The notes under the pieces: model-generated
The model's database searches: none
Seen by the model: only the letters and a program-made list of their open reading frames with translations
Told to the model about the DNA's origin: nothing
Program-made: the position numbers and the translations under genes
Assembly: GCA_016193065.1 (NCBI GenBank)
Contig: JACPSX010000006.1
Coordinates: forward strand, 1,808 to 37,740
Direction: 5' to 3'
DNA length: 35,933 bases
Source of the DNA: Candidatus Tectimicrobiota bacterium
GTDB taxonomy: Bacteria > JACPSX01
Shown: piece by piece, positions 3,018 to 23,410 of the stretch
Layout: each line of letters begins with the position of its first letter
How positions within the stretch are numbered: position 1 is the first letter of the stretch

Positions 3018-3995
3018 CTAGCGCTTGCGCGCCTCCCGCACGAACGAGAAATCCACCACGTCGGAGAGGGCAACTTCCCGCTCGACTTTCTGAGCACGCT
3101 TGACCTGCTCCACCAGATTGCGGATCAACTTTTCCGGAGCCTCCCCATCGGGGCTGAAGGTCTTCACCATGAGATCGTAGCTGCCCTCGGCTACCTTACG
3201 GCTCACTTTCCACTGCTTCACGATGAAGTCCACAGACCCGCTGCGGTCCGTGCGGGATAGATCGAGGCTCTTGACAAAAGCCCGGGCCATGCGCTTCACC
3301 TGGGCCGGATTTTCGTTGATCTTTTTCACGGAAGTGGAGAGCCCCGACTGCAAGCCCTCGACGATGTCCCCGGCAAAGACCAGCTTCTTAAGACCCTGCT
3401 CCTCGGCGATGGAATCGTCCGGAAGCGTGACAATGGCCCCGTCCACCGCGCCGCCTTTGACAGAAGCAATCTTGTTGGCCTCGCTGCCCAGGGGGAGGGT
3501 GACGATGTCTTTGTCCGGGTTGAGACCGTAGTACTTCAGGATGTCCCGGGCCACAAAATCCGTCGTGGTCCGCAGGGAAGAGACGGCGATTTTCCCCCCC
3601 TTGAGATCCGTCACCTTGTTGATCCTGGGCTGGACCATCAGGACCAGAGACGATCGGATCCCGATGAAACCGATGGCCTTCAGAGGCATGCCTGAGACGG
3701 CGGAGCGGATCGTGGTTTCCGCCGAGGTGGCAAAGTCCAGCTCCCCGGCGACCATGGCCGGCAGGGAAAGAGCCGTGCGGATCTGGATCACTTCCAGGTC
3801 AAAGCCCTCGGCCTGAAAAATTTTCTTTTCCTGACCCATCAGGATGGGGAGCTGGCTCATGGCCACCACGGGAATCCCGATCCGGACCTTTTCGAGCCCC
3901 TGCGCCCATGTGAAGGCGGGACCGAGCAGGACTGAAGCAAGGAAAAAGAACGCAATTCCTTGTGTCTGCAAAAGCCTTAGCCATCTCTTCATCAT
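3018..3995 (-). CDS. ABC-type solute-binding protein (NMT1/TauA-like)
   Basis: This is a 325-residue periplasmic binding protein. The N-terminus MMKRWLRLLQ...FFFLASVLLGPAFTWA is a typical signal peptide with likely cleavage after TWA. The mature part begins LEKVRIGIPVVAMSQLP, followed by GQEKKIFQAEGFDLEVI, AGELDFATSAETTIRSA and a VTDLKGGKIAVSSL block, which is the usual order for the NMT1/SsuA-like family binding sulfonates, taurine, thiamine precursors or aromatic acids. The start has GAGGAG six bases upstream. No ABC permease or ATPase gene is present anywhere in the window. Its neighbours are a UbiD decarboxylase upstream and a molybdenum oxidoreductase downstream, so an organic acid ligand is a reasonable guess. 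The ligand cannot be read from the sequence. Confidence 0.9.
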   Translation of the reverse strand: MMKRWLRLLQTQGIAFFFLASVLLGPAFTWAQGLEKVRIGIPVVAMSQLPILMGQEKKIFQAEGFDLEVIQIRTALSLPAMVAGELDFATSAETTIRSAVSGMPLKAIGFIGIRSSLVLMVQPRINKVTDLKGGKIAVSSLRTTTDFVARDILKYYGLNPDKDIVTLPLGSEANKIASVKGGAVDGAIVTLPDDSIAEEQGLKKLVFAGDIVEGLQSGLSTSVKKINENPAQVKRMARAFVKSLDLSRTDRSGSVDFIVKQWKVSRKVAEGSYDLMVKTFSPDGEAPEKLIRNLVEQVKRAQKVEREVALSDVVDFSFVREARKR

Positions 3996-4191: not shown

Positions 4192-5817
4192 CTAGATTTT
4201 CTTCTTCTCCCGCAAAATCTCCTCGGCGATCTTGTCAAACTCTCCCCGATCGGCCATCTCGGCGTGGCGCTGGTACTTTTCAGGCCACTCCCCCCAGGAG
4301 ACCCCGTACCACGGCTCCATGGGCTTCAAGGCCGGCAACCCGATTTCTTCCCAAATCTCTCTCCCCCGGTCCATATAGGCTTTCGTGGGCAGAGACGTGG
4401 GGGTATACGGCCACTTGCGGGTGGCGTCGATCAGGATGGAGGAGTTTCCCGACAGACCCGTGCGGCTGGAAGGATATTCCTGCTCCTCCAAGGAAATTGT
4501 CCGAGGCCCCCCCGACTGGTCCGCGGTGGCGCCCCGACCCTGGATGATCTGGGTGTCCCGGTGGGGCTGGTAGCGGAAGGAGATGGCCCAGAAGACCGAC
4601 TCCAGATCCCAGGGGTCGATATCCGAATCGACGGCAATGATGATCTTGGGCCATTCGGAGGAGACGGCCAGCGCGCTGTGCAGCGCATGCCAGACGGTCC
4701 GCGGGGAAGTGCGGGTGGTGCCGATGTCCTGCAGGCGGATCACGGCCAAACGCCGGGAGCCGCCGCAGTGATGAAACGCCACGTCCTTCACCTGGGGAAT
4801 TCCGCAGGAGCTGCGCAGGAAGGAGGACATCAGAGCCTCCCGCGTCAGGTTCCCCATGACGCTCGATTCACTGGGAGGGAACTGATCCACCAGATCATGC
4901 CAGATCGGGTTCTTGCGGTGGGTGATGCAGCGCACGTGAAACCCGAAGACCATCCGGTCGATGAAAGTATATCCGGTATGCTCTCCGCTGGGCGGATCGG
5001 GAATCAGGTAGTCCGTTGGAATCTCCCCCTCGATGACGATTTCCGCACTGGCCGGCACCTCGATGTCCATGGTTTCACAGCGGACGACCTCGAGGGGCTC
5101 CCCGGCTAAGCCGCCAGCCACTTCCAGCTCGCTGACACCGTAGGGCATCTCGGTGATGCTGGTGGCCACCACCACGGGAACCGCCCCTATGACCGCCGCC
5201 ACCGGCAGCGGAAGACCGCGGGCCTTGTACTTCTGCCAGTGAACTCTGAGATCCGCCCGCGGAGAGACCCGGGCGGAGCTTTCCAGGGGACCCAGCAAGA
5301 CCCCGTTGTACGTCCCCACGTTCACCGATCCTGTGTCGGGGTCCCGGGACATCCAGCACACGGCCGTCAGACGGGGGAGCGACTCCCAGCCGTTCGTGGT
5401 CATGGGAATCGGGAACTCATGGAGGCCGCCGTGGGCCAGGAGGGTGTCCCCTTTGTGGATCTCCTCCTTGACCGGACCCGTGCTCACCCGCCGCGTGGGG
5501 ATCGGGTTCCGGTAGGCTCGGGACCAGCGCTCGATGATGGCCTGCCGCGTGGGCTCGCACTGGAGGGCCAAGGCGTATGCCTCCAGGCAGGGAGCAACCA
5601 CAGCGGAAGCGACAGAGCCCTGATAGCGCTCCCCGTGGATTCCCTTGACCTTCTCAAAGAGAAACCCGAAGCGCTGCGATTCCTCGAGCCCCCGGAATTG
5701 CCAGCGCACGACGGGATGGAGCTCGGTGTCCTTGTCGATTTCCCGGGTGATCCGGCGCAGCTTGCCGATCTCTTCGAGAGCCGCCAGAAATTCTCTCAGA
5801 TCCTTATAGTAGGCCAT
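4192..5817 (-). CDS. UbiD family decarboxylase (long form)
   Basis: This is a 541-residue member of the UbiD family, whose enzymes use prenylated FMN to decarboxylate (or carboxylate) aromatic and unsaturated acids. It begins YKDLREFLAALEEIGKLRRI and has FLFEKVKG, AVIGAVPVV, PYGVSELEVAGGL, a prFMN-site segment ASAEIVIEGEI, GEHTGYT, IIAVDSDIDPWDLESVFWA and near the end SSILIDATRKWPY, all in family order. It is about 40-60 residues longer than typical UbiD. At the place where most members read N-x-G-x-YR, this one has NVGTYNG (N171), so the arginine I take as catalytic is absent. AAGGAG precedes the ATG. No ubiX flavin prenyltransferase is in the window. It is flanked by SBP genes on both sides, probably one transcript. 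Substrate unknown. Confidence 0.9.
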   Translation of the reverse strand: MAYYKDLREFLAALEEIGKLRRITREIDKDTELHPVVRWQFRGLEESQRFGFLFEKVKGIHGERYQGSVASAVVAPCLEAYALALQCEPTRQAIIERWSRAYRNPIPTRRVSTGPVKEEIHKGDTLLAHGGLHEFPIPMTTNGWESLPRLTAVCWMSRDPDTGSVNVGTYNGVLLGPLESSARVSPRADLRVHWQKYKARGLPLPVAAVIGAVPVVVATSITEMPYGVSELEVAGGLAGEPLEVVRCETMDIEVPASAEIVIEGEIPTDYLIPDPPSGEHTGYTFIDRMVFGFHVRCITHRKNPIWHDLVDQFPPSESSVMGNLTREALMSSFLRSSCGIPQVKDVAFHHCGGSRRLAVIRLQDIGTTRTSPRTVWHALHSALAVSSEWPKIIIAVDSDIDPWDLESVFWAISFRYQPHRDTQIIQGRGATADQSGGPRTISLEEQEYPSSRTGLSGNSSILIDATRKWPYTPTSLPTKAYMDRGREIWEEIGLPALKPMEPWYGVSWGEWPEKYQRHAEMADRGEFDKIAEEILREKKKI

Positions 5818-5917: not shown

Positions 5918-6940
5918 TTACCGGTAAAGGTGGTCGATGAACCCTTCTTGATCCAGGCGTCTCAAGATGGAGACGTCAATCAACTGCTCCGCCCGCACTT
6001 CTTTCACCTTGGGGTTGGTCGCAGAGAGAAATTCCAAGGTGGCAGTCGTAGCGGTCATGTTTGGATAGGGCTTCTTCTCCACTTTCGGGAGGAGATCCTT
6101 GTAGGCTTCCTCCGCTTTCTTGACATCCAGGCGCAGATAACGGGTCAGGATCTTCGTCACCATCTCTTTGTTTGCCGGGTTCAGGATAAAGGCGTTGGCT
6201 TCCAGAATGCTTTTCACAATCGCCTCCGCGATCTGGGGATTTTGCCGGACATAGCTCCGCGTTGAGACCAGTGCATTGTTGATGAAGGGTACTCCCAATT
6301 GGCCCATGTCGCCCAGGAAGCTGTACTTGCCCTCTTGGAGCCGCCCGGCCACGGAATGATCGATCAGCGTGCCATCAATGCGCCCGGCAAGAAGAGCCTG
6401 CGCCCTCTGGGTTTCATTGCCGAGGGTAAGCAGGGTCACCCGGTCCCGGACCGGATCGATCCCAAAGTGCTTGAGCAGGAGAAAGGTCGCCAGGTGGGAA
6501 GAAGATCCGAAGCTGCTGATGGCCAGGGATTTTCCTTTAAAATCTTGAGGGCTCTTGATCTCCGGCTTGGCCCAGATGTCGTAGCTCAACTGATTCGTGA
6601 TCCCCAGAATCATGACGGCGTCAGCCCCGCCCGCTACCGCCGAGGCCACCGTCGTCGCCCCGGTAAAACCGGAGGGCACCGTGCCGGACACGATGGCCTG
6701 GATCATCAAGCGGCCCCCCTCGACCAAGACGATTTCCGCATCCAACCCGTACTTGCGGAAGATCCCCTGGCGCTCGGGAACCCAGAGGGCAGCAATCTCA
6801 TTGCGGATGTTAGAATGGCCGATTGTCACCTTGGTCAGAGTCCCGGTGGAACCGGAACGGAGGCCACCAACCGCCCCCGCGAGTACAACGAGGACCATCA
6901 GAGATACTTGGCTCATACGGCGCAAAAACCGCCCTTTCAT
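5918..6940 (-). CDS. ABC-type solute-binding protein (NMT1-like)
   Basis: I place the start at ATG 6940 rather than the ORF-track 7033, because GGGAGG lies about nine bases upstream and the protein then opens with a proper signal peptide (MKGRFLRRMSQVSLMVLVVL...). The mature region has KVTIGHSNIRNEIAALWV, RQGIFRKYGLDAEIVLVEGG, a serine-rich SSFGSSSHLATF that usually contacts ligand, and a C-terminal helix set typical of the family. The length is about 340 residues. The gene is directly upstream of the UbiD decarboxylase (100-bp gap) and downstream of the cupin gene on the same strand, so it probably supplies the substrate for that block. No matching permease or ATPase is in the window. Confidence 0.9.
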   Translation of the reverse strand: MKGRFLRRMSQVSLMVLVVLAGAVGGLRSGSTGTLTKVTIGHSNIRNEIAALWVPERQGIFRKYGLDAEIVLVEGGRLMIQAIVSGTVPSGFTGATTVASAVAGGADAVMILGITNQLSYDIWAKPEIKSPQDFKGKSLAISSFGSSSHLATFLLLKHFGIDPVRDRVTLLTLGNETQRAQALLAGRIDGTLIDHSVAGRLQEGKYSFLGDMGQLGVPFINNALVSTRSYVRQNPQIAEAIVKSILEANAFILNPANKEMVTKILTRYLRLDVKKAEEAYKDLLPKVEKKPYPNMTATTATLEFLSATNPKVKEVRAEQLIDVSILRRLDQEGFIDHLYR

Positions 6941-7112
6941 GGGACCCCCTCCCTTATAGGCATGTGGTGCCCGATCATTTGCGTGTAGACGGCGGGTATT
7001 ATCGTGGGGATTTAGGACCCGGTCAAGCTCCAAGTGGGCTGCTCAAAATGTGTTCCAGCAACCACGAAAGCCCAGACAAAAACCGGTCGCGGAGGGCGAG
7101 GATGGAAAGGGA

Positions 7113-8246
7113 TCAGTCCTCGGGCGACATACCGTATGGAGTACCCTCTGCCTGCAGCACTGCCTTAAACTCCCTCCGGATATGAGGGTCCTCGAGATCG
7201 AAATCGATCATGGTGCCCCCTTCCCTAATGCTGACCATAGAAAGGCTCGCGGACCCCTCGCCTGCCCCGGCCTGGAAGAATCCTACCGGGTGTTTGGCAT
7301 CTCCATACCGCAAGGCGACTACTAAGACATCTTCCTTACTAATGCACATATGTTGGTGCCACCAAGCTGTAGGAGGACTGAACAGAGAGCCGTCTTCCCA
7401 CTCGACCCTCACCACCTTATGTACGTTCCCAGACTCGTATGGCCGCAAACCTGCTACAGGCGGCCACATCAGGCTATACCCCTTGCCCTGGAGGGGCATC
7501 AAAACCGCTCCTCCCCCATGGGCGTGAGCCTTGACGTATTGCCCTGGAGCCCAGCGGGCGATGTGCCCTGACAGGACGTTTTCAACCAAGTTATAGCTCA
7601 TCACCCGGTAAGAACCGCCTTTAGTAAACTGGTCGTGAAGCAAGACTTGCTGGACGTCGGGAATAAAGTTGCAATCCAGAAACTCCCTGCGGCCGCCGTG
7701 AGCGTCACTACTCGCGGTCACCACCTCTCTTGTCTGAAAATAGTCAGGACGACCATCGTAGCGGCTGGTGAACTGGTAATCGCTCTCAAAGATGAATATC
7801 GAGTCATGGAACAGGTCCATCACAAGGGGCGCTGAGGTAGAGGCCACAGCCAGAACGGGGTCGGAGCCCTCGTTGATGAGCCGATGCTGGGCGTTCAGGG
7901 GGATACCAAAGAGCGCTCCTTTTTGCCAGCTAAAGCTCTGCCGCCGGCCGTCGTAAGTCCACACCTCAGTCGAGCCTGCACCCTCCACAATAAAGTACTG
8001 CTCCTCATACAGATGCTTCTCACGATGGAGGGCCTCCCCCTGAGGGATTTCCACCACATAGATCCCCGTCAGATACTCCTGCCCATGGAGCTGAACGAAG
8101 GTGCCTTTCCCCCCCAAGCGCTTCCACGGCTTCAACTCTAGGTCCCGCACTTGCCGAACATACCACCCCTCTACAACGGGGATTTCCTGCTCCTTCATAA
8201 ATTTGTCGTAAGCGGGATCCTGACGAGATTGCGCTTTAGAGACCAT
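7113..8246 (-). CDS. Two-cupin-domain protein, possibly a ring-cleavage dioxygenase-like enzyme
   Basis: The start at ATG 8246 has AAAGGAG eight bases upstream, giving 377 residues; the ORF-track extension to 8363 lies in A+T-rich intergenic sequence. The protein is a bicupin: a first domain with GIYVVEIPQGEALHREKHLYEEQYFIVEG and FGIPLNAQHRLIN, and a second with WAPGQYVKAHAHGGGAVLMPLQGKGYSL and PPTAWWHQH. Both cupin motifs hold histidines and a glutamate or similar that could bind a metal. The layout resembles gentisate or 1-hydroxy-2-naphthoate dioxygenase, but I cannot assign the reaction. It leads the minus-strand catabolic run and faces the TTT cluster across a divergent 420-bp gap. Codon use here is less GC-biased than in the genes below 7 kb. 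Confidence 0.8.
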   Translation of the reverse strand: MVSKAQSRQDPAYDKFMKEQEIPVVEGWYVRQVRDLELKPWKRLGGKGTFVQLHGQEYLTGIYVVEIPQGEALHREKHLYEEQYFIVEGAGSTEVWTYDGRRQSFSWQKGALFGIPLNAQHRLINEGSDPVLAVASTSAPLVMDLFHDSIFIFESDYQFTSRYDGRPDYFQTREVVTASSDAHGGRREFLDCNFIPDVQQVLLHDQFTKGGSYRVMSYNLVENVLSGHIARWAPGQYVKAHAHGGGAVLMPLQGKGYSLMWPPVAGLRPYESGNVHKVVRVEWEDGSLFSPPTAWWHQHMCISKEDVLVVALRYGDAKHPVGFFQAGAGEGSASLSMVSIREGGTMIDFDLEDPHIRREFKAVLQAEGTPYGMSPED

Positions 8247-8666
8247 TGCAGAACTCCTTTGCTTTGAACTCACATTCCAATGTAATTGACGGGCTACGAT
8301 TGTCAAGGAATCGCATTGACCGACTATAGCTCCACAGATGACAAATCGCTCGTGAGGTTCCAAAATGCGGACCCGGAGGAAGCCCTGAGTGTGTTAAATT
8401 CCCTGGGAGGAGGCACGAGTTAGCCACAGAGAATGCAAATGCATCATCCAAATAAGCAATTTGACTCATTTCATATCCACCCATAATTGTGCTATCTAAC
8501 GCAAAATTCGTAACAAAATGTACAAACAGAGAGTGACACTTTCGCAAGCCCCGGCCGGGTTCAAACTGAGTGCAGGTCTGTAAATTCTCAAGAATGTGGC
8601 GCTAGCCGAATTAGGAAATAGTCTCAGGTGCTTTTTCCCCATGCTTAAGAAAAAGGAGGTAGCCTG
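8247..8666. other. Divergent intergenic region between the cupin and tctC1 genes
   Basis: This 420-bp stretch is A+T-richer than its surroundings and has no convincing gene; the 103-aa minus-strand ORF (8236-8547) overlaps the cupin start and looks spurious. It should carry both divergent promoters. A candidate for the minus strand is listed separately. For the plus strand I see only a weak TTGACT (8461) with CATAAT (8482) at a short 15-base spacing. The last 70 bases (from GTGGCG at 8596) resemble the sequence before tctC3 (from 13268), so the duplicated unit included upstream DNA. Confidence 0.6.
8279..8306 (-). promoter_or_regulatory. Candidate sigma-70 promoter for the cupin gene
   Basis: On the minus strand a perfect TTGACA (8301-8306) is followed after 16 bases by TACATT (8279-8284), four of six matches to TATAAT. 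The predicted transcript would begin about 25 bases before the cupin ATG, leaving room for its AAAGGAG ribosome site. The call rests on pattern matching only. Confidence 0.4.
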
Positions 8667-9752
8667 ATGAAAACGATGTACGCCCTTGCCATATTGGTGG
8701 CAGCAGCACTCTTGCTAGGAGCCGTGGCGTGGGGCTCAGCTGCAGCTTCCACTCCTACTTCACAAACCCTCACCGCAGCTAGGGAGTTCTTCCGAGGTAA
8801 GGATGTTACCATCGTGCTGACCACCAGCCCCGGTGGGTCATACGACTTCATCTCTCGCCTCATTGCCACCAAGCTCAAGGAGGTCCTAGACGCTCGGTCG
8901 GTGATCGTACAAAACCGGGGCGGCGGCCATGTGACCGCAACGAACTATGTCTACAACCGAGTTAAGCCGGATGGCCTGACCTTGCTGCATTTTGCTTTGG
9001 GTTCCAGGGGCTGGTCCCAACTCATGGCTACGCCCGGAGTTGAATATGACGTGCGTCAGTTTATACCCGTGGGTCAGTACCATCCACCTCAGGGAGCGGT
9101 ATTAGAAACGAGGGGCCCCTTAAAGTTGAAGACCATCAGCGATTTGAAGAACTTGAAGCAGCTTCGAGTTGGCACCACAGCCCGGTATTCAGACGTCCAA
9201 TTGCTAACTACTCTTTTGTTTGAGAATTTTGGCATCTCCAACGCCAAATTTATCACTGGCTATAAGGGCTCCACAGAAACCCAATTGGCAGTGCAAAAAG
9301 GCGAGATTGAGGCTACAGCCGGCGTCACCACATCATCCGCTTTGCAGGACAAGAAAGCCATAGAGAGCGGGATCTACGGCCTATTCACTATTTACAGCGA
9401 CAAGCGGGTGGAAGCTTTCCCTGACGTGCCAGTGGCACTTGAGCTCGGTGAGTGGCGAGCGGATCTCAAACTCTGGCTGGAGCTTGCAATGGCCATATCC
9501 GACCTTTACAACACGTGGGTTCTGCCACCGGGCACCCCGCCGGACAGGGTGGCCTACCTCCGTCAGGTTTTCGAGGATATGTGGGCGGATCCCGAGACCA
9601 AAAAAGGGCTTAACAACTTGTTTGTTGGCTATGCCATGTTTCGACGTGGGAGCGACACTGAGCAAGTGGTAAAAAAGGCGTTTCACAAAGTGCTTTCAGA
9701 GGCAGATCGTATCTGGTTACGCCAGCTCATGGATAAGTGGTCCACTAAGTAA
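8667..9752 (+). CDS. tctC: TctC/Bug-family substrate-binding protein of a tripartite tricarboxylate transporter, paralog 1
   Basis: This is a 361-residue periplasmic receptor. The signal peptide MKTMYALAILVAAALLLGAVAWGSAAAS precedes FFRGKDVTIVL and the ligand-loop motif SPGGSYDFISRL, then QNRGGGHVTATNYVYNRVKPDG, GTTARYSDVQLL and a C-terminal NTWVLPPGTPPDRVAYLRQVF, all diagnostic of the TctC/Bug fold. GGAGG precedes the ATG at normal distance within the string GGAGGTAGCCT, which recurs before the other two paralogs. The protein binds a carboxylate and delivers it to TctA/TctB; the ligand is unknown. It is the first gene of the plus-strand transporter cluster, separated from tctA by 269 bp. A weak hairpin (GGTAGAG/CTCTACC, 9761-9787) follows the stop but lacks a T run. 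Confidence 0.92.
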   Translation: MKTMYALAILVAAALLLGAVAWGSAAASTPTSQTLTAAREFFRGKDVTIVLTTSPGGSYDFISRLIATKLKEVLDARSVIVQNRGGGHVTATNYVYNRVKPDGLTLLHFALGSRGWSQLMATPGVEYDVRQFIPVGQYHPPQGAVLETRGPLKLKTISDLKNLKQLRVGTTARYSDVQLLTTLLFENFGISNAKFITGYKGSTETQLAVQKGEIEATAGVTTSSALQDKKAIESGIYGLFTIYSDKRVEAFPDVPVALELGEWRADLKLWLELAMAISDLYNTWVLPPGTPPDRVAYLRQVFEDMWADPETKKGLNNLFVGYAMFRRGSDTEQVVKKAFHKVLSEADRIWLRQLMDKWSTK

Positions 9753-10021
9753 AGCCCGGGGGTAGAGGTTGAAAACGGCACTCTACCGCCTGCCCACTGC
9801 CGAACCTATTCTGAATGAGCCTGGACGTAATCAGTGAACCGAGCAAGGACAGATCCAAGCCTTTTGGACTACTGCTCAAGAGATCGAGGCCCGCGAAGCC
9901 CTGAGCGACGGAACCTAACAATCGTACGGCTAGCGTGCTCGATTGCCCTGATCGCAGTCAGGGGAATCATTGCGTCTGCCGCAGCAGCATAGGCAATACT
10001 CTGCCGTAGGAGGTGGCCGGG

Positions 10022-11407
10022 TTGATTGAAGCATTCCTCAACGGGATGGTAAATCCTTTTGATCCCACAATCCTTCCTTACTTCCTCATGGGCATTGCGC
10101 TCAGTTTGACCCTGGGGTTTCTCCCGGGAATAGCTGTCTTCCATATACTGGCTGTGCTCCTCCCCGTCGCCGTTATCCTGAAGCCCATGCAAGGTTTGAC
10201 CTTCCTGGTGGCGTCTACCTCCGTGGGCGCCACGGGCGGTTCTATTGCAAGCGTCCTATTCAACATTCCAGGGGATTCATCCAATGCAGCCACGCTTCTT
10301 GACGGCTACCCGATGACCTTAAAGGGCCAAGCCGGGAGGGCCATGGGGATTGCGCTGGCCGCCTCGGGGCTGGGCGGCAAGATTTCCCGGGGGAATGCCC
10401 TGAGAGGACTCATTCCGGGGCTGTTGGGTATCCTGCTCGCCATGATCGGCCTCGATGGGTTCTCAGGGGACTACCGCTTCACCTTCGGCACGAGCTATTT
10501 GATGGATGGGCTGCCGCTGGTCCCGGTGTTCCTGGGCATCTTTGCTTTGCCCCAAGTGATCGATCTTGCGGCCGGCGCATCCGGCGCTGCGCTGTCCAAA
10601 GTCATCCCGAATGTGACTTTCCGCGAGGTGTTCGCGGGGACCAAAGAGACCTTCCGCCACTGGTGGCTCTTCATCCGCAGCCTGCTTCTCGGGGTATGGT
10701 TCGGGGTATTGCCGGGGATTGGGGCCGGGGGAGCGATCTGGGTCGCCTACGCGCATGCCAAGCAAACCTCCAAGCGGCCGGAGGAGTTCGGCACCGGACG
10801 TCCCGAAGGGATTCTCGCACCTGAGACTGTGAACAACGCCTGCACCGGTGGTGATCTCCTCACTACGCTGGTTTTCGGTATCCCCGGCAGTGCAACCATG
10901 GCCTTCCTCCTGGGCGCGTTCTTATTGGCTGGGATACAGCCTGGCCCCGGGATGATATACGAACACCTGGAGTTGTCCTTCACTCTTCTATGGACTGTGG
11001 CCTGGGCTAACGTCATTGGAGTCATTGTCTGCCTAATCCTTACCACCCGGATCGTCAGGTTGGCGTACCTTTCGCCCAAAGTGCTGGCACCGATCATTCT
11101 TGCACTGGTCTTGATCGCCACCTTTGTCGGTTCCGATGAAGATCTAACGGCGTACATCATCCTTTTCGCTATTGCTCCTCTCGGCTATGCGATGATGAAG
11201 CTGGATTACAACCGGGCATCCTTCGTCTTGGGATTTGTCCTTGGCGAGCTTGCGGAGAGGAGCTTCCAGCTAGCCCTGCAAACCCGGGGACCTCTGTTCC
11301 CGGTCAACTCTCCGATCAGTGCCATCCTCACGTTGATCCTCCTCACTGTGATCTTCCAGCGTCAATTGGGGCGCCTATTCCGTGCTTTACGCAGGAGGAT
11401 CGCGTGA
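10022..11407 (+). CDS. tctA: Tripartite tricarboxylate transporter large membrane subunit TctA, with an apparent internal gap
   Basis: TctA is the large multi-helix subunit of the TTT carboxylate symporter. Family segments are present: FLMGIALSLTLGFLPG, STSVGATGGSIASVLFNIPGD, LDGYPMTLKGQAGRAMGIALA, FTFGTSYLMDGL, LLGVWFGVLPGIGAGGAIW, PETVNNACTGGDLLTTLVFGIPGSATMAFLLGA. I choose TTG 10022 because AGGAGG is six to eight bases upstream; the ORF-track GTG at 10013 lies inside that ribosome site. The protein is about 460 residues, whereas the family is near 500. The shortfall seems to be internal: after ALAASGLGG the sequence jumps through KISRGNALRGLIPG, so the helix pair normally found there (GTIGAL... 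to FGPAEYFAL...) is missing in frame. Function may be impaired or altered. The stop overlaps the tctB start. Confidence 0.88.
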   Translation: MIEAFLNGMVNPFDPTILPYFLMGIALSLTLGFLPGIAVFHILAVLLPVAVILKPMQGLTFLVASTSVGATGGSIASVLFNIPGDSSNAATLLDGYPMTLKGQAGRAMGIALAASGLGGKISRGNALRGLIPGLLGILLAMIGLDGFSGDYRFTFGTSYLMDGLPLVPVFLGIFALPQVIDLAAGASGAALSKVIPNVTFREVFAGTKETFRHWWLFIRSLLLGVWFGVLPGIGAGGAIWVAYAHAKQTSKRPEEFGTGRPEGILAPETVNNACTGGDLLTTLVFGIPGSATMAFLLGAFLLAGIQPGPGMIYEHLELSFTLLWTVAWANVIGVIVCLILTTRIVRLAYLSPKVLAPIILALVLIATFVGSDEDLTAYIILFAIAPLGYAMMKLDYNRASFVLGFVLGELAERSFQLALQTRGPLFPVNSPISAILTLILLTVIFQRQLGRLFRALRRRIA

Positions 11408-11853
11408 AGGCGGAGATCCTCTTTCTTTGCGTTCTCGCTGCTCTGGGCTCCGTGGCCGTGTTCGCTGCCTCCTCCTTCAGCCCGGCCGGTCGGCGATTCC
11501 CATGGCTGGTTACCTTCATCCTTCTGGGGCTCGTGCTCTTACAGGCCATTCGCACGGCGCGCAGGGCCACCCCACAGGAGCCTCGCTTGTCTCGGGAAAG
11601 TCTGCGAGAGTTCCTCCGCAGCCATGGGGCCATCTTCTCGTGGTCCGCTGCCGGCTTCTTTCTCGTCTACCTGTTCGGATTTATCGTCGGAGTCTTCCTT
11701 CTCATCCTGGGTTATCAGGTGCAACAGAGGCAGAAATGGCCGGCCGCGCTGGCCTATGCAGCAGGGATGGGGTTGGCGACCTACTTTGGGTTCCAGGTAG
11801 GACTGCAGATGCACCTTTACCAAGGCCTGGTCACGAAACTTTTGGGCTTCTGA
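11404..11853 (+). CDS. tctB: Tripartite tricarboxylate transporter small membrane subunit TctB
   Basis: This small membrane protein of 149 residues has four hydrophobic segments: an N-terminal helix (ILFLCVLAALGSVAVF), FPWLVTFILLGLVLL, a pair around WSAAGFFLVYLFGFIVGVFLLI, and a C-terminal stretch ALAYAAGMGLATYFGF. This is the size and topology of TctB, the small subunit that pairs with TctA. The GTG start at 11404 overlaps the tctA stop by four bases (GTGA), indicating translational coupling. Family sequence identity is low in general, so position next to tctA carries much of the weight. Confidence 0.88.
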   Translation: MKAEILFLCVLAALGSVAVFAASSFSPAGRRFPWLVTFILLGLVLLQAIRTARRATPQEPRLSRESLREFLRSHGAIFSWSAAGFFLVYLFGFIVGVFLLILGYQVQQRQKWPAALAYAAGMGLATYFGFQVGLQMHLYQGLVTKLLGF

Positions 11854-12039
11854 CCTCATCCTTGCTTGACCTGTTTGCCTCCTCCACTATGAAAGTGGGT
11901 GTGGCTGTGTGTGAGCGAATGAGATAGCACCTTCTATGAGGTGAAATGCGGGCATTTTCTTTGTGAGTGTCTAATTCCCTCGGGAAGAGGGAAGAGTTGG
12001 CGATGGATAAGGCAAATGGATCTCGAAGGAGGTAGCCTC

Positions 12040-13128
12040 ATGAAAGCGATTCATGCATCTGCCGTATTGCTGGCGGTGGCACTGCTGCTCGGAGCCGCGT
12101 GGGGTCCTGTTGCGGCTTCCACTCCCACCTCACCCCCTCCCTCCGCCGCTAAGGAGTTCTTCCGCGGCAAGGATATCACCCTCGTGCCGATGACAAGCAC
12201 AGGGACGTACGACTTCATTGCCCGCCTCATTGCCCCCAAGCTCAAGCAGGTCCTGGACGCCCGGGCGGTCATCGTGCAGTACCGGGGTGGTGGCTTCGAG
12301 GCTGTGGCCAACTACATCTATAATCGAGTTAAGCCGGACGGCTTAACCATGCTGCATTTTGCTTTGGGTTCCAGGGGCTGGTCCCAACTTATGGCCGCAC
12401 CTGGAGTCGAATTTGACGTTCGTCAGTTCGTGCCCGTGGCTCAGTTCATGCCGCCCCCGGGAGCGGTACTGATGGCGAACGGCAACTTGGGTGTGAAGAC
12501 TGTCAGCAATCTGAAGAACTTGAAGCAGTTTCGAGTCGGGACGACATCGCGGTATTCAGACGTCCAGTTGCTAAGCACCCTTCTATTCGAGAATTTCGGT
12601 ATCTCCAACGCCAAATGGGTTACAGGTTATACTGGGGCTATAGAAACCCTGTTGGCCGTGCAAAAGGGGGAGATTGAGGCAACCGCCGGCGTGACCACCT
12701 CGGTCGCCCTGCAGAGAAAAAAGGATATAGATACCGGAATCTACACACTATTCACCATCTACAGCGAGAAGCGGGTGGGAGCTTTCCCTGACGCACCAAC
12801 GGCATTTGAGCTGGGCGAGTGGCGAGCGGATCTCAAACCCTGGCTGGAAACTGCGATGGCCATGTCCCAGCTTTACAACACCTGGGTCTTGCCACCGGGC
12901 ACGCCGGCGGACAGGGTGGCCTACCTTCGTCAGGTTTTCGAGGAGGATTTGTGGACGGATGCCGAGATCAAGAAAGGGCTCATGACCCTCTTCCAGGATT
13001 ACGCTCAGTTCCGTCCAGGGAGCGAGATCGAGCAGATCATCAAGAAGGCATTCCCGCAAACACGAACATTTCCAGAAGCAGATCGCTCCTGGATGCGCCA
13101 GCTCATAGACAAGTGGTCCACTAGGTAA
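12040..13128 (+). CDS. tctC: TctC/Bug-family substrate-binding protein, paralog 2
   Basis: I start at ATG 12040, behind GAAGGAGGTAGCCTC, not the ORF-track GTG 11941, because the signal peptide MKAIHASAVLLAVALLLG begins there and aligns with paralog 3. The 362-residue protein has the family string FFRGKDITLVPMTS, but the ligand loop reads STGTYDFIARL, one residue shorter and without the SPGG of the other two copies. The middle has QYRGGGFEAVANYIYNRVKPDG and GTTSRYSDVQLL. The C-terminal third (WSQ...TLFQDYAQFRPGSEIEQIIKKAFPQTRTF) differs most from the paralogs. It follows tctB by 186 bp. I infer a different ligand preference while sharing the same TctAB pair. Confidence 0.92.
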   Translation: MKAIHASAVLLAVALLLGAAWGPVAASTPTSPPPSAAKEFFRGKDITLVPMTSTGTYDFIARLIAPKLKQVLDARAVIVQYRGGGFEAVANYIYNRVKPDGLTMLHFALGSRGWSQLMAAPGVEFDVRQFVPVAQFMPPPGAVLMANGNLGVKTVSNLKNLKQFRVGTTSRYSDVQLLSTLLFENFGISNAKWVTGYTGAIETLLAVQKGEIEATAGVTTSVALQRKKDIDTGIYTLFTIYSEKRVGAFPDAPTAFELGEWRADLKPWLETAMAMSQLYNTWVLPPGTPADRVAYLRQVFEEDLWTDAEIKKGLMTLFQDYAQFRPGSEIEQIIKKAFPQTRTFPEADRSWMRQLIDKWSTR

Positions 13129-13333
13129 GAATGGGCTGGAGCGAAATGAGGGGCTATTCTGCCGTCAGCCCAGTGCTGAAGCTGTCGCTAACAAGACCAT
13201 GTGTACCTGAACCAGGCAAGACTAGATCGAAGTTCCTGGATCGCTACTCGGAAAACCGCGTCTTAATGTGGCGGTATTCGAATTTAGGAAACGGTCCCAG
13301 ATTCCCGGTTAAAGAAAGAATGGAGGTAGCCTC

Positions 13334-14425
13334 ATGAAAGCGATTCACGCATCTGCCGTATTGCTGGCGGTGACATTACTGCTCGGAGCCGTGGCGTGGG
13401 GCCCAGCGGCGGCTTCCACTCCCACCTCACAACCCTCCACCGCAGCTAAGGAGTTCTTCCGAGGCAAGGACGTTACCCTCGTTCTGATGACCTCCCCCGG
13501 TGGGGCGTATGACCTGATTGCCCGCCTCATTGCCCCCAAGCTCAAGCAGATCTTGGAGGCTCGGGCGGTGATCGTGCAACTCCGGGGTGGCGGATTCGTG
13601 GCCGTAACCAACTATGTCTACAACCGAGTCAAGCCGGACGGCTTGACCTTGCTGCACTTCGCCCTGGGTTCCAGGGGTTGGTCCCAACTCATGGTTACGC
13701 CCGGCGTTGAATTTGACGTGCGTCAGTTCGTGCCCGTGGCCCAGTTCATGCCACCCCCGGGGGCGGTACTGCTAACGAGGGGCGCCCTGGGGGTGAAGAC
13801 CGTCAGCGATCTGAAGAACTTGAAGCAGTTTCGAGTCGGGACGACAGCGCGGTATTCAGACGTCCAGTTGTTAAGTACTCTTTTGTTTGAGAATTTCGGT
13901 ATTTCCAACGCCAAATTTGTTACTGGCTATACTGGCTCCACAGACACCATGTTGGCAGTGGAACGGGGTGAGATTGAGGCCACGGCCGGTGTGACCACAT
14001 CATCAGCCTTGATGGAAGCGAGGAAAGGCATAGAAAGTGGGGTTTATGGCCTATTCACCATCTACAGCGAGAAGCGGGTGGAAGCTTTCCCTGACGTGCC
14101 AGTGGCACTTCAGCTCGGTGAGTGGCGAGCGGATCTCAAACCCTGGTTGGAGATTGCAACGGCCATATCCGACCTTTACAACACGTGGGTTCTGCCACCG
14201 GGCACCCCAGCGGACAGGGTAGCCTACCTTCGTCAGGTTTTCGAGGATTTGTGGGCAGATGCCGAGATCAAAAAAGGGCTTAACAACTTGCTCCAGGGCT
14301 ATGCCATGTTTCGAGGTGGGAGCCAGATTGAGCAAGTGGTAAAAAAGGCTTTTCCGAAAGAAGTGCTTTCAGAGGCAGATCGTACCTGGTTACGCCAGCT
14401 CATGGATAAGTGGTCCGCTAAGTAG
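13334..14425 (+). CDS. tctC: TctC/Bug-family substrate-binding protein, paralog 3 (mosaic of 1 and 2)
   Basis: This 363-residue receptor has signal peptide MKAIHASAVLLAVTLLLGAVAWG, ligand loop SPGGAYDLIARL, QLRGGGFVAVTNYVYNRVKPDG, GTTARYSDVQLL and NTWVLPPGTPADRVAYLRQVF. GGAGGTAGCCTC precedes the ATG. The first half matches paralog 2 (VPVAQFMPPPGAVL, NLKQFRVGTT), the second half matches paralog 1 (GLFTIYS-KRVEAFPDVPVAL, AISDLYNTWVLPPG, ending ADR-WLRQLMDKWS-K). The DNA switch lies near 13865-13885. Its upstream 65 bases resemble those of paralog 1. It is followed after 25 bp by the UbiD gene, so this receptor is the one most likely co-expressed with that enzyme. Confidence 0.92.
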   Translation: MKAIHASAVLLAVTLLLGAVAWGPAAASTPTSQPSTAAKEFFRGKDVTLVLMTSPGGAYDLIARLIAPKLKQILEARAVIVQLRGGGFVAVTNYVYNRVKPDGLTLLHFALGSRGWSQLMVTPGVEFDVRQFVPVAQFMPPPGAVLLTRGALGVKTVSDLKNLKQFRVGTTARYSDVQLLSTLLFENFGISNAKFVTGYTGSTDTMLAVERGEIEATAGVTTSSALMEARKGIESGVYGLFTIYSEKRVEAFPDVPVALQLGEWRADLKPWLEIATAISDLYNTWVLPPGTPADRVAYLRQVFEDLWADAEIKKGLNNLLQGYAMFRGGSQIEQVVKKAFPKEVLSEADRTWLRQLMDKWSAK

Positions 14426-14450: not shown

Positions 14451-15893
14451 ATGTTCAAAGATTTGAGAGATTTCATGGAACGCACCGATAAGGCTGGTCA
14501 CTTGCGTCGGGTTAACGATGCAGACTGGAATTTAGAAGTAGGTGCGCTGCAGGAGATTGCGGCCTTTCATAAAGATCGACCCGCTTTGCTTTTCGATCGC
14601 ATCAAAGAGTACGCGCCCGGCTACCGGATCTTCGCGAATGCTACGACCCATTCCCAACGTTTGGCGTGGACCCTTGGCTTGCCGGACCACTTCCGGGGGG
14701 TTGACCTTGTCCGAGCGCTGCGAGAAAAGATGAGGAATTTACGCTTAATTCCACCAAAAGAAGTGACAGACACTCCGCTCTTCGAAAACGTTCATACGGG
14801 AGCCGATATTGACTTGTACGAATTCCCTGCTCCACGTTGGAAGGAATACGATGGCGGCCGCTACCTGGGCACAGGCTGTCAGGTGGTAAGTAGGGCACCT
14901 GATGAGGAATGGGTGAATCTCGGAACTTATAGGGTGCAGGTGCATGGTCCTACCCTCGCTGGTCTTTACATGTCGCCGGGGCGGCATGCGTACGCTATGT
15001 TTGAGCCGTATTGGACCCGCGGCGAAGCTGCGCCGGTAGCAGTGGTGGTTGGGGCTGACCCGACGCTTCTCATGGTGTCCGGTCAGCTTCTGCCTTGGCG
15101 GGTTTCGGAGTATGACTTTGCCGGCGGGTTGAGGGGAGCCCCCGTAGAGGTGGTGCGGGGTCCCATAACGGGACTGCCACTGCCGGCTACGGCAGAGATC
15201 GTCCTGGAGGGTGAAGTCCCGCAACCGAGCGAGCAAACTCACCCGGAGGGACCGTTTGGCGAGTGGACCGGGTATTACGCCAGCGGTCAGCGCGAAGCGC
15301 CGGTGATCCGCGTGAAAGCGATCTATCACCGTAGCGATCCGATCATCCTGGGCGCAGCTCCCATACGTCCTCCTGCCAGTTCGACTGGAAGCGGTCTTTT
15401 CAAAGCAGGACAGATTTGGGACGAGCTCGAAAGGGCTGGTGTCACCGATGTACAAGGCGTCTACATGTTGGCGGCCGGGGGACCCTTCCTGATTTGTGTC
15501 ATCTCCATGACACCTCGCTATGGAGGCCATGCTCGACAGGCAGCGATGCTGGCCAGCAGCATGCGTGCCGGAGCGTACATGTGCCGCCTGGTGATTGTTG
15601 TGGATGAAGACATCGATCCCTCAGACCCCAACGATGTCTTCTGGGCTGTCGCCACCCGGTGTGATCCGCAAGAGGATATCGACATTGTTCGCGATACATG
15701 GGGGAGCTGGTTAGATCCTCGCCTTTCGCCCGAAAAGCGGTCCAGGGCAGATTTGACCATGAGCAGGGCTTTGATCGACGCCACACGGCCGTATTATTGG
15801 CGTGACCGGTTTCCTAAAGTGAGCGAGACAAGCCCTGAGCTACGACATCAGGTCATGGCTAAGTGGGCTGACCTTTTTGGTTATAATCTGTGA
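14451..15893 (+). CDS. UbiD family decarboxylase (standard form)
   Basis: This is a 480-residue UbiD-family enzyme, the normal length. It begins FKDLRDFMERTDKAGHLRRV and has the N-x-G-x-YR site intact (NLGTYR, R161), PVAVVVGADPT, the acidic pair in ATAEIVLEGEV (E249, E253), FGEWTGYYA, VVDEDIDPSDPNDVFWAVATR and SRALIDATRP. These are the residues expected around prenyl-FMN, so it should be catalytically competent if UbiX acts elsewhere in the genome. The ATG is preceded by GGGAGAGG. It lies 25 bp after tctC3 and is probably on the TTT transcript, implying that the transported acid is its substrate. Phthaloyl-CoA decarboxylase is also UbiD-like and comes with TTT or TRAP transport in denitrifiers, so an aromatic acid is plausible but unproved. 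Confidence 0.92.
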   Translation: MFKDLRDFMERTDKAGHLRRVNDADWNLEVGALQEIAAFHKDRPALLFDRIKEYAPGYRIFANATTHSQRLAWTLGLPDHFRGVDLVRALREKMRNLRLIPPKEVTDTPLFENVHTGADIDLYEFPAPRWKEYDGGRYLGTGCQVVSRAPDEEWVNLGTYRVQVHGPTLAGLYMSPGRHAYAMFEPYWTRGEAAPVAVVVGADPTLLMVSGQLLPWRVSEYDFAGGLRGAPVEVVRGPITGLPLPATAEIVLEGEVPQPSEQTHPEGPFGEWTGYYASGQREAPVIRVKAIYHRSDPIILGAAPIRPPASSTGSGLFKAGQIWDELERAGVTDVQGVYMLAAGGPFLICVISMTPRYGGHARQAAMLASSMRAGAYMCRLVIVVDEDIDPSDPNDVFWAVATRCDPQEDIDIVRDTWGSWLDPRLSPEKRSRADLTMSRALIDATRPYYWRDRFPKVSETSPELRHQVMAKWADLFGYNL

Positions 15894-22396: not shown

Positions 22397-23410
22397 ATGA
22401 CACTTGCAGACAGCACATGTCGGGTCCGGAGAGAAGACTTATTTCTGTTCATCCTGGTCATCATGCTCATCCACTTCATCACCCTCGCGGCAACTCCAGC
22501 ATCCGCTCAAACTCTGCAGAAGATCAAGATCGGCATCCCGGCCGTCAATGTTCTTACGAAGCCCTTTTTTATCGGCCAGGACCTGGGCTTCTTCCGGCAG
22601 GAGGGGCTCGATGCCGAGTTTCCCTTTGTGCGCCCCGAGCTGGGCGCCGCCGGTCTGGTGAAAGGGGAGATAGACTATTTCGCCAGCGGGGACACCACGC
22701 TGCGGGCGGCGGCCGGCGGCCTGCCCGTTAAGCTGATATTCGCCATGGCCGATCACGGAGACCTGGCCCTCGTGGTGCGCAGTGACATCCAGAAAGGAAC
22801 CGATCTAAAAGGGAAAAAGATCGCGGTGGCTTCTCCGCGTACACTGCCCTCCGTGGCCATGATGGAATCGGCACGCCGCTACGGACTCGACCCCCTGAAA
22901 GACATCTTCCTGGTCAGCGTGGGGGACCTGCTGCCCCGCTATCAGGCCCTGCAGGCGGGCGCCGTGGACGGGATGGTCGTGGACACGGCTCTGGCCATCA
23001 TGGCCCGGAACAAAGGGTACAAAATCCTCGATCCCATGTGGCAATGGATGGATCTCGTGCAGATCGGCCTGGGGGTAAACGATCGCGTCCTCAAGCAAAA
23101 CCCCGACTTTGTGTACCGGACACTGAAAGCGTCCCTGCGCAGTCTGGTCCATGTGCGAACCCATTCAGCGGAAATGATCAAGGCCATCCAGAGCGTGCGG
23201 GAGGTCAACGACGAGGAAGCGAAATTTGTTTACGACATCATCGTGCAAAACATGACGGCAAACGGCATCCCTTCCAACCGCAGCGTGCAGGTCAGCCTGG
23301 ATGCCATCAAGGCCGACAACCCGGACAAGAAGATCCCGACCATTGACGAAGTCGTAGACTTCGGCCTCCTGCGACGGGCGCAAAGGGAACTGGGAATCAA
23401 GGCCCCCTAG
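22397..23410 (+). CDS. ABC-type solute-binding protein (NMT1/TauA-like)
   Basis: A 337-residue binding protein with an N-terminal hydrophobic signal (LFLFILVIMLIHFITLAATPASA, cleavage probably after ASA) and a mature part with KIKIGIPAVNVLTKPFF, GQDLGFFRQEGLDAEF, KGEIDYFASGDTTLRAA, a TDLKGKKIAVASPRTLPS block and YGLDPLKDIFLVSVG. GGAAGGAGC precedes the ATG. It resembles the 3018-3995 SBP in overall pattern. It is followed after 56 bp by a nitrilase, so the pair is probably co-transcribed and the ligand could be a nitrile or amide, which is inference. No permease or ATPase accompanies it. Confidence 0.9.
   Translation: MTLADSTCRVRREDLFLFILVIMLIHFITLAATPASAQTLQKIKIGIPAVNVLTKPFFIGQDLGFFRQEGLDAEFPFVRPELGAAGLVKGEIDYFASGDTTLRAAAGGLPVKLIFAMADHGDLALVVRSDIQKGTDLKGKKIAVASPRTLPSVAMMESARRYGLDPLKDIFLVSVGDLLPRYQALQAGAVDGMVVDTALAIMARNKGYKILDPMWQWMDLVQIGLGVNDRVLKQNPDFVYRTLKASLRSLVHVRTHSAEMIKAIQSVREVNDEEAKFVYDIIVQNMTANGIPSNRSVQVSLDAIKADNPDKKIPTIDEVVDFGLLRRAQRELGIKAP

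Follow-up and report, generated by a model that had tools for sequence, protein, structure and literature searches.

How many receptors can a single TTT permease serve? It has long been puzzling that TctC receptors outnumber TctAB permeases. That several TctC proteins might use one TctAB in common has been proposed by Antoine et al. and by Hosaka et al. (via PMC5812351); a 2018 review stated that evidence for it was still lacking (PMC5812351). The window analysed here, a stretch of 35,933 nucleotides from a Candidatus Tectimicrobiota bacterium, poses this question at a single locus, where three tctC genes (C1, C2, and C3) stand on both sides of one tctA-tctB pair. A first inspection of the letters, hereafter the sequence-only reading, had proposed that the three receptors widen the ligand range of one transporter. 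The locus is a real, modestly unusual variant of the TTT operon, and it is unproven that a single pump works with all three receptors. The reading preferred here, held tentatively and at slightly short of an even chance, is that exported C1-C3 bind related carboxylates and feed a shared TctAB, with the neighboring UbiD acting on the imported acid.

Gene order and integrity of the receptors

Open reading frames and Pfam matches (TctC three times, TctA, TctB, and UbiD) give the order C1-tctA-tctB-C2-C3-ubiD, all on the + strand, and the arrangement C1-A-B-C2-C3 described in the sequence-only reading is therefore real. The first gene, tctC1 (8667..9752, +), encodes a TTT periplasmic receptor of 361 aa (Pfam TctC, 42.8 bits) with the leader GGAGGTAGCCT and an SPGGSYD loop. 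The permease gene tctA (10022..11407, +) encodes 461 aa that match Pfam TctA (PF01970) at 334 bits in two stretches; its most likely start is TTG 10022, because GGAGG lies 8 nt upstream, and the open reading frame itself opens at GTG 10013. It overlaps by 4 nt with tctB (11404..11853, +), which encodes a small membrane subunit of 149 aa whose Pfam TctB match (PF07331, 45.9 bits) covers nearly the full profile. The second receptor gene, tctC2 (12040..13128, +; 362 aa; Pfam TctC, 31.8 bits), has its true start at ATG 12040, the longest open reading frame opening at GTG 11941, and carries the carboxylate loop STGTYD, one Gly short. The third, tctC3 (13334..14425, +; 363 aa; Pfam TctC, 35 bits), is a mosaic of a C2-like 5′ part and a C1-like 3′ third. 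As had been noticed, this last receptor lies beside a UbiD gene: 25 nt after tctC3 comes a ubiD-family decarboxylase (14451..15893, +) with matches to Pfam UbiD, UbiD_N, and UbiD_C and to subfamily TIGR00148 above cut-off. Divergent from the operon is a gene for a cupin protein (7113..8363, -; Pfam Cupin_2). The operon genes are co-directional, their gaps are short, and terminator-like sites within the operon are no more frequent than in shuffled sequence, all of which favors the preferred reading.

All three receptors score above the cut-off for PF03401 (TctC), and their sequence matches in the PDB include BugD, TphC, and MatC; most likely, C1, C2, and C3 would all be exported receptors for related carboxylates. 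Three further claims of the sequence-only reading were borne out. Internal stops are absent from every tctC copy, the same ribosome-binding leader, GGAGGTAGCCT(G/C), precedes all three, and by inspection each N-terminus (MK, a hydrophobic stretch, and AAAS or VAAS) is a predicted signal peptide of the Sec type. Amino-acid identity is 74% for C1/C2, 81% for C1/C3, and 81% for C2/C3, values well above any chance resemblance. The nucleotide identity of 77-85% (15-23% divergence) rules out assembly duplication of tctC, the explanation that the sequence-only reading had named as able to overturn it, as the copies are too divergent. The dN/dS values are 0.22, 0.31, and 0.20; values of 0.2-0.3 argue that the copies have been kept as working proteins, and the three genes are, by this measure, intact and under purifying selection. 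The intact genes, the low dN/dS, the common leader, and the duplicated flanks described below favor the preferred reading. An AlphaFold model of C3 built from an 11-sequence alignment had a mean pLDDT of 50, too low for a fold search.

Origin of the array and comparison with other loci

Three pairs of duplicated segments surround the receptor genes. A distal leader at 8386..8451 (+), 216-281 nt upstream of C1, has its partner at 11964..12027 (+), upstream of C2, and the local alignment score of 32.5 was reached by 0/500 shuffles. A proximal leader at 8593..8666 (+), upstream of C1, recurs at 13265..13333 (+), upstream of C3; with the ribosome-binding site included, this pair scores 44 vs. a shuffle maximum of 23, and without that site the match is weaker, being reached by 1/500 shuffles. 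The 3′ flank of C1 (9759..9873, +) is likewise matched by that of C2 (13133..13248, +), with a score of 27.5 reached by 0/500 shuffles. Within C3, the last third is C1-like (91.7% nt), and the first part is slightly nearer to C2. In a test for this breakpoint, the observed value was exceeded by 0/10000 permutations of informative sites and by 77/10000 when only third positions were used. The homologous flanks and the mosaic C3 argue for duplication in place with partial homogenisation. Judged in this way, the trio is the product of two tandem duplications in place, in which the receptor gene would have been copied together with its leader DNA, followed by recombination or partial homogenisation as the copies exchanged sequence.

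Within the genome, C1-C3 form one clade in which the adjacent copies are closest to each other, and other tctC copies are at most 35% identical to them. Orphan tctC genes occur elsewhere in the same genome, in agreement with the earlier statement that extra receptors are usually scattered. On one contig (C168), an orphan TctC gene is followed by a response-regulator-like gene, and a sensing role is possible there. No close homologue of C3 was found in 58 comparison genomes, all related at domain level only; a scan of genome contigs gave receptors only 24-25% identical.

The number of adjacent tctC copies, set beforehand as a check, was counted in 23 plasmid TTT loci, a non-random sample composed of the best matches and of evenly spaced matches. 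A single adjacent tctC was present at 20 of the 23 loci, two at 3/23, and three at none (0/23), and the view that one receptor per tctAB is usual thus holds for these plasmids. The three loci with two copies, on plasmids of the closely related Sinorhizobium terangae, S. mexicanum, and S. chiapasense, have the order tctA-tctB-tctCa-tctCb, followed by a cupin gene. The tctCa and tctCb products are ~72% identical; this pair and the C1-C3 trio fall into separate clades (~26% identical), and the two duplications are therefore independent. The window cupin is homologous to that of Sinorhizobium (30% identity over 341 aa, E 1e-52), and a Phyllobacterium locus with tctA, tctB, and one tctC also has a cupin. 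Cupins at the TTT loci of the window, Sinorhizobium, and Phyllobacterium therefore point to a TTT-cupin association common to distant bacteria. The Sinorhizobium operon thus resembles the present one in its single tctAB, its tandem paralogous receptors, and its nearby cupin, but it has two receptors, all downstream of tctAB, and a full-length TctA.

Several known systems share part of this design. HisJ and ArgT, two receptors with different ligand ranges, work with one ABC permease, HisQMP. ArtI and ArtJ are paralogous receptors beside a single ABC permease, ArtQMP, and also differ in ligand range (PMC6640053). Such two-receptor systems are ATP-driven and have an unrelated permease; the likeness to the C1-C3 locus is one of functional analogy, not membership. 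In the tctCBA/bctCBA operons of Salmonella and Bordetella (PMC5812351), genes for TctA, TctB, and TctC lie together on one strand, as they do here. However, those operons have one receptor per tctAB, whereas the present locus has three paralogues on both sides of a pair whose TctA is 38 residues short. In Rhodoplanes sp. Z2-YC6860, tandem TTT receptors form 48 pairs and arrays of 3, 4, 5, and 9, and 9/434 receptors belong to full tctABC operons (PMC5994714). Those arrays, too, consist of adjacent tctC copies that arose by lineage-specific duplication, but within the nine-gene array most receptors are <50% identical, whereas C1-C3 are 74-81% identical and flank one tctAB. The literature already describes tandem TctC arrays (of up to nine) and ABC permeases shared by more than one receptor; no description of a C-A-B-C-C operon, or of the two-receptor TTT operon of Sinorhizobium, was found in the open-access literature. 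Together, the three-receptor locus and the two-receptor operon of culturable Sinorhizobium, with its full-length TctA, make the sharing hypothesis directly testable.

Receptor pockets and ligand range

Pocket positions were mapped by profile alignment to TphC (PDB 7NDR), with contacts taken from the literature (PMC8556258). Fourteen of the 19 mapped positions are identical in C1-C3. The other five, which read P/T/P, G/-/G, S/T/A, K/T/T, and S/A/S in C1/C2/C3, sit in loops holding the second carboxylate; the three receptors would accordingly have most of their binding positions in common and differ in the second-carboxylate loop. In our own alignment, the S/T/A position corresponds to Pro29 of BugD, Pro30 of MatC, and Gly24 of Vibrio TTT-C. 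The G24A substitution abolishes binding by Vibrio TTT-C, and the position has been proposed as a specificity residue (PMC13390454). Three-way differences occur in only 13/365 columns of the C1-C3 alignment. The presence of Ser, Thr, and Ala at a published specificity position is suggestive of possible ligand divergence among C1, C2, and C3. The preferred reading is favored by this position and by the Sinorhizobium pair, which has fixed Val/Gly there, one among 67 fixed differences overall, so that chance is possible.

The loop itself varies as well. From the TTT receptor motif P-F-x-A-G-G-x-x-D, C1 and C3 keep GG-x-Y-D, with T replacing F, and in the alignment C2 keeps one of the two Gly of the GG-x-x-D loop. 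With its loop one Gly short, C2 may have altered or poor ligand binding. Changes are not enriched in the pocket, where 5/19 positions (26%) differ vs. 102/330 mature columns (~31%), and this, together with the loop of C2 being one residue short, weakens the preferred reading. Positive selection in the pocket is unsupported, as its rate of change is no higher than that of other mature columns. The wider ligand range put forward in the sequence-only reading is thus plausible in light of the three-way difference at the specificity position and the altered C2 loop, and it is tempered by the lack of enrichment and the 14 identical positions.

Those same 14 positions are also compatible with a set of receptors for one ligand, which would supply more receptor or cover different concentration ranges. 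The homogenisation of the last third of C3 with C1 points in this direction too, and a precedent exists in Synechococcus WH8102, where three PstS paralogues bind one ligand with tenfold different affinity (PMC10846223). However, the three-way difference at the specificity position, the C2 loop deletion, and an amino-acid divergence of 19-26% speak against such a dosage or affinity set, and we consider it rather unlikely.

The shortened TctA and the UbiD neighborhood

The sequence-only reading had counted one TctAB pair. A single tctA-tctB pair is indeed present, but a working pair is doubtful because TctA lacks 38 internal residues, among them a conserved Glu. The gap follows aa 121 (~nt 10385), where the alignment shows 38-39 residues in 22/22 other TctA, and the Pfam TctA match skips profile positions ~106-141. 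The comparison set (n=22) comprises two full-length TctA from the same genome, plasmid homologues (alphaproteobacteria, Burkholderia, Arthrobacter), and one protein from a viral-collection contig. The missing block contains a hydrophobic stretch and a Glu present in all 22 homologues, and a shared permease may therefore not work. TctA nevertheless keeps 42/46 highly conserved columns; four deviate, including that Glu, and other homologues deviate at 0-6. This normality at 42 of 46 columns favors the preferred reading, in which C1-C3 would pass their ligand to the single TctAB encoded between them. From sequence evidence, the shortening may be a recent deletion, a working variant of the permease, or an artefact of assembly. 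A PDB sequence search with TctA gave no match, and an AlphaFold model from 3 sequences (pLDDT 36) was uninformative on topology. Neither the TctA gap nor the Gly loss in the C2 loop had figured in the sequence-only reading.

Were the permease dead or dying, the receptors would now serve other TctAB proteins, another permease, or sensing. The loss of a hydrophobic stretch and of a Glu conserved in 22/22 fits such decay, and two complete tctCBA sets (contigs C9 and C158) lie elsewhere in the genome. Signalling roles have been described for TctC proteins (BctC), and in Bordetella a DctP receptor is highly expressed and its membrane genes look non-functional (PMC5812351). Stops or frameshifts should accompany decay, however, whereas TctA is in frame and normal at its other conserved columns, and the overlapping tctB is intact; we regard this explanation as unlikely.

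Alternatively, the gap could stem from misassembly or from variation between strains, the real operon having a full-length TctA and three receptors. The genome is a draft of 294 contigs, another gene of the window is frameshifted, and none of the 22 compared TctA relatives has the gap. Yet it is a clean, in-frame gap in sequence free of N, and the retained sequence has no repeat by which a collapse could be explained, which leaves this possibility unlikely; it would, moreover, concern TctA only, since the divergence of the tctC genes is too great for assembly copies. If real, the deletion points to a region and a conserved Glu that could be tested as requirements for transport. It is highly doubtful that the short TctA is a functional form adapted to several co-encoded receptors with different ligands, which, if true, would be the first TTT operon in which one permease serves three local receptors of different ligands. 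Elsewhere in the window, a molybdopterin oxidoreductase gene (484-2786, -) is split over two frames (Pfam profile 1-123 and 127-352), which implies a frameshift near 2170, through a sequencing error or in a pseudogene.

Under the preferred reading, the UbiD encoded directly behind C3 would act on the imported acid. On contig C20 of the same genome, a UbiD gene lies directly behind a TctC gene, and its product is 46% identical to the UbiD encoded after C3. The recurring pair supports a functional TctC-UbiD link and thereby favors the preferred reading. Genes for a further UbiD, an HpaB-type hydroxylase, and NMT1-type receptors also lie in the window and make aromatic-acid metabolism a reasonable setting. 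PF02441 (UbiX, CoaC) was not found in the genome, which is 86% complete, and was found in 14/14 control genomes; in view of both, nothing follows from its absence, alongside which the genome has several UbiD genes. The second UbiD and three NMT1/THI5-like receptors of the window (4195-5817, -; 3021-3995, -; 5918-7033, -; 22397-23407, +) lie without clear permease genes nearby. On contig C20, the order is a CoA-transferase pair, the orphan TctC, UbiD, an unknown open reading frame, and a DctM permease, which brings a TctC receptor together with UbiD and a TRAP-type permease.
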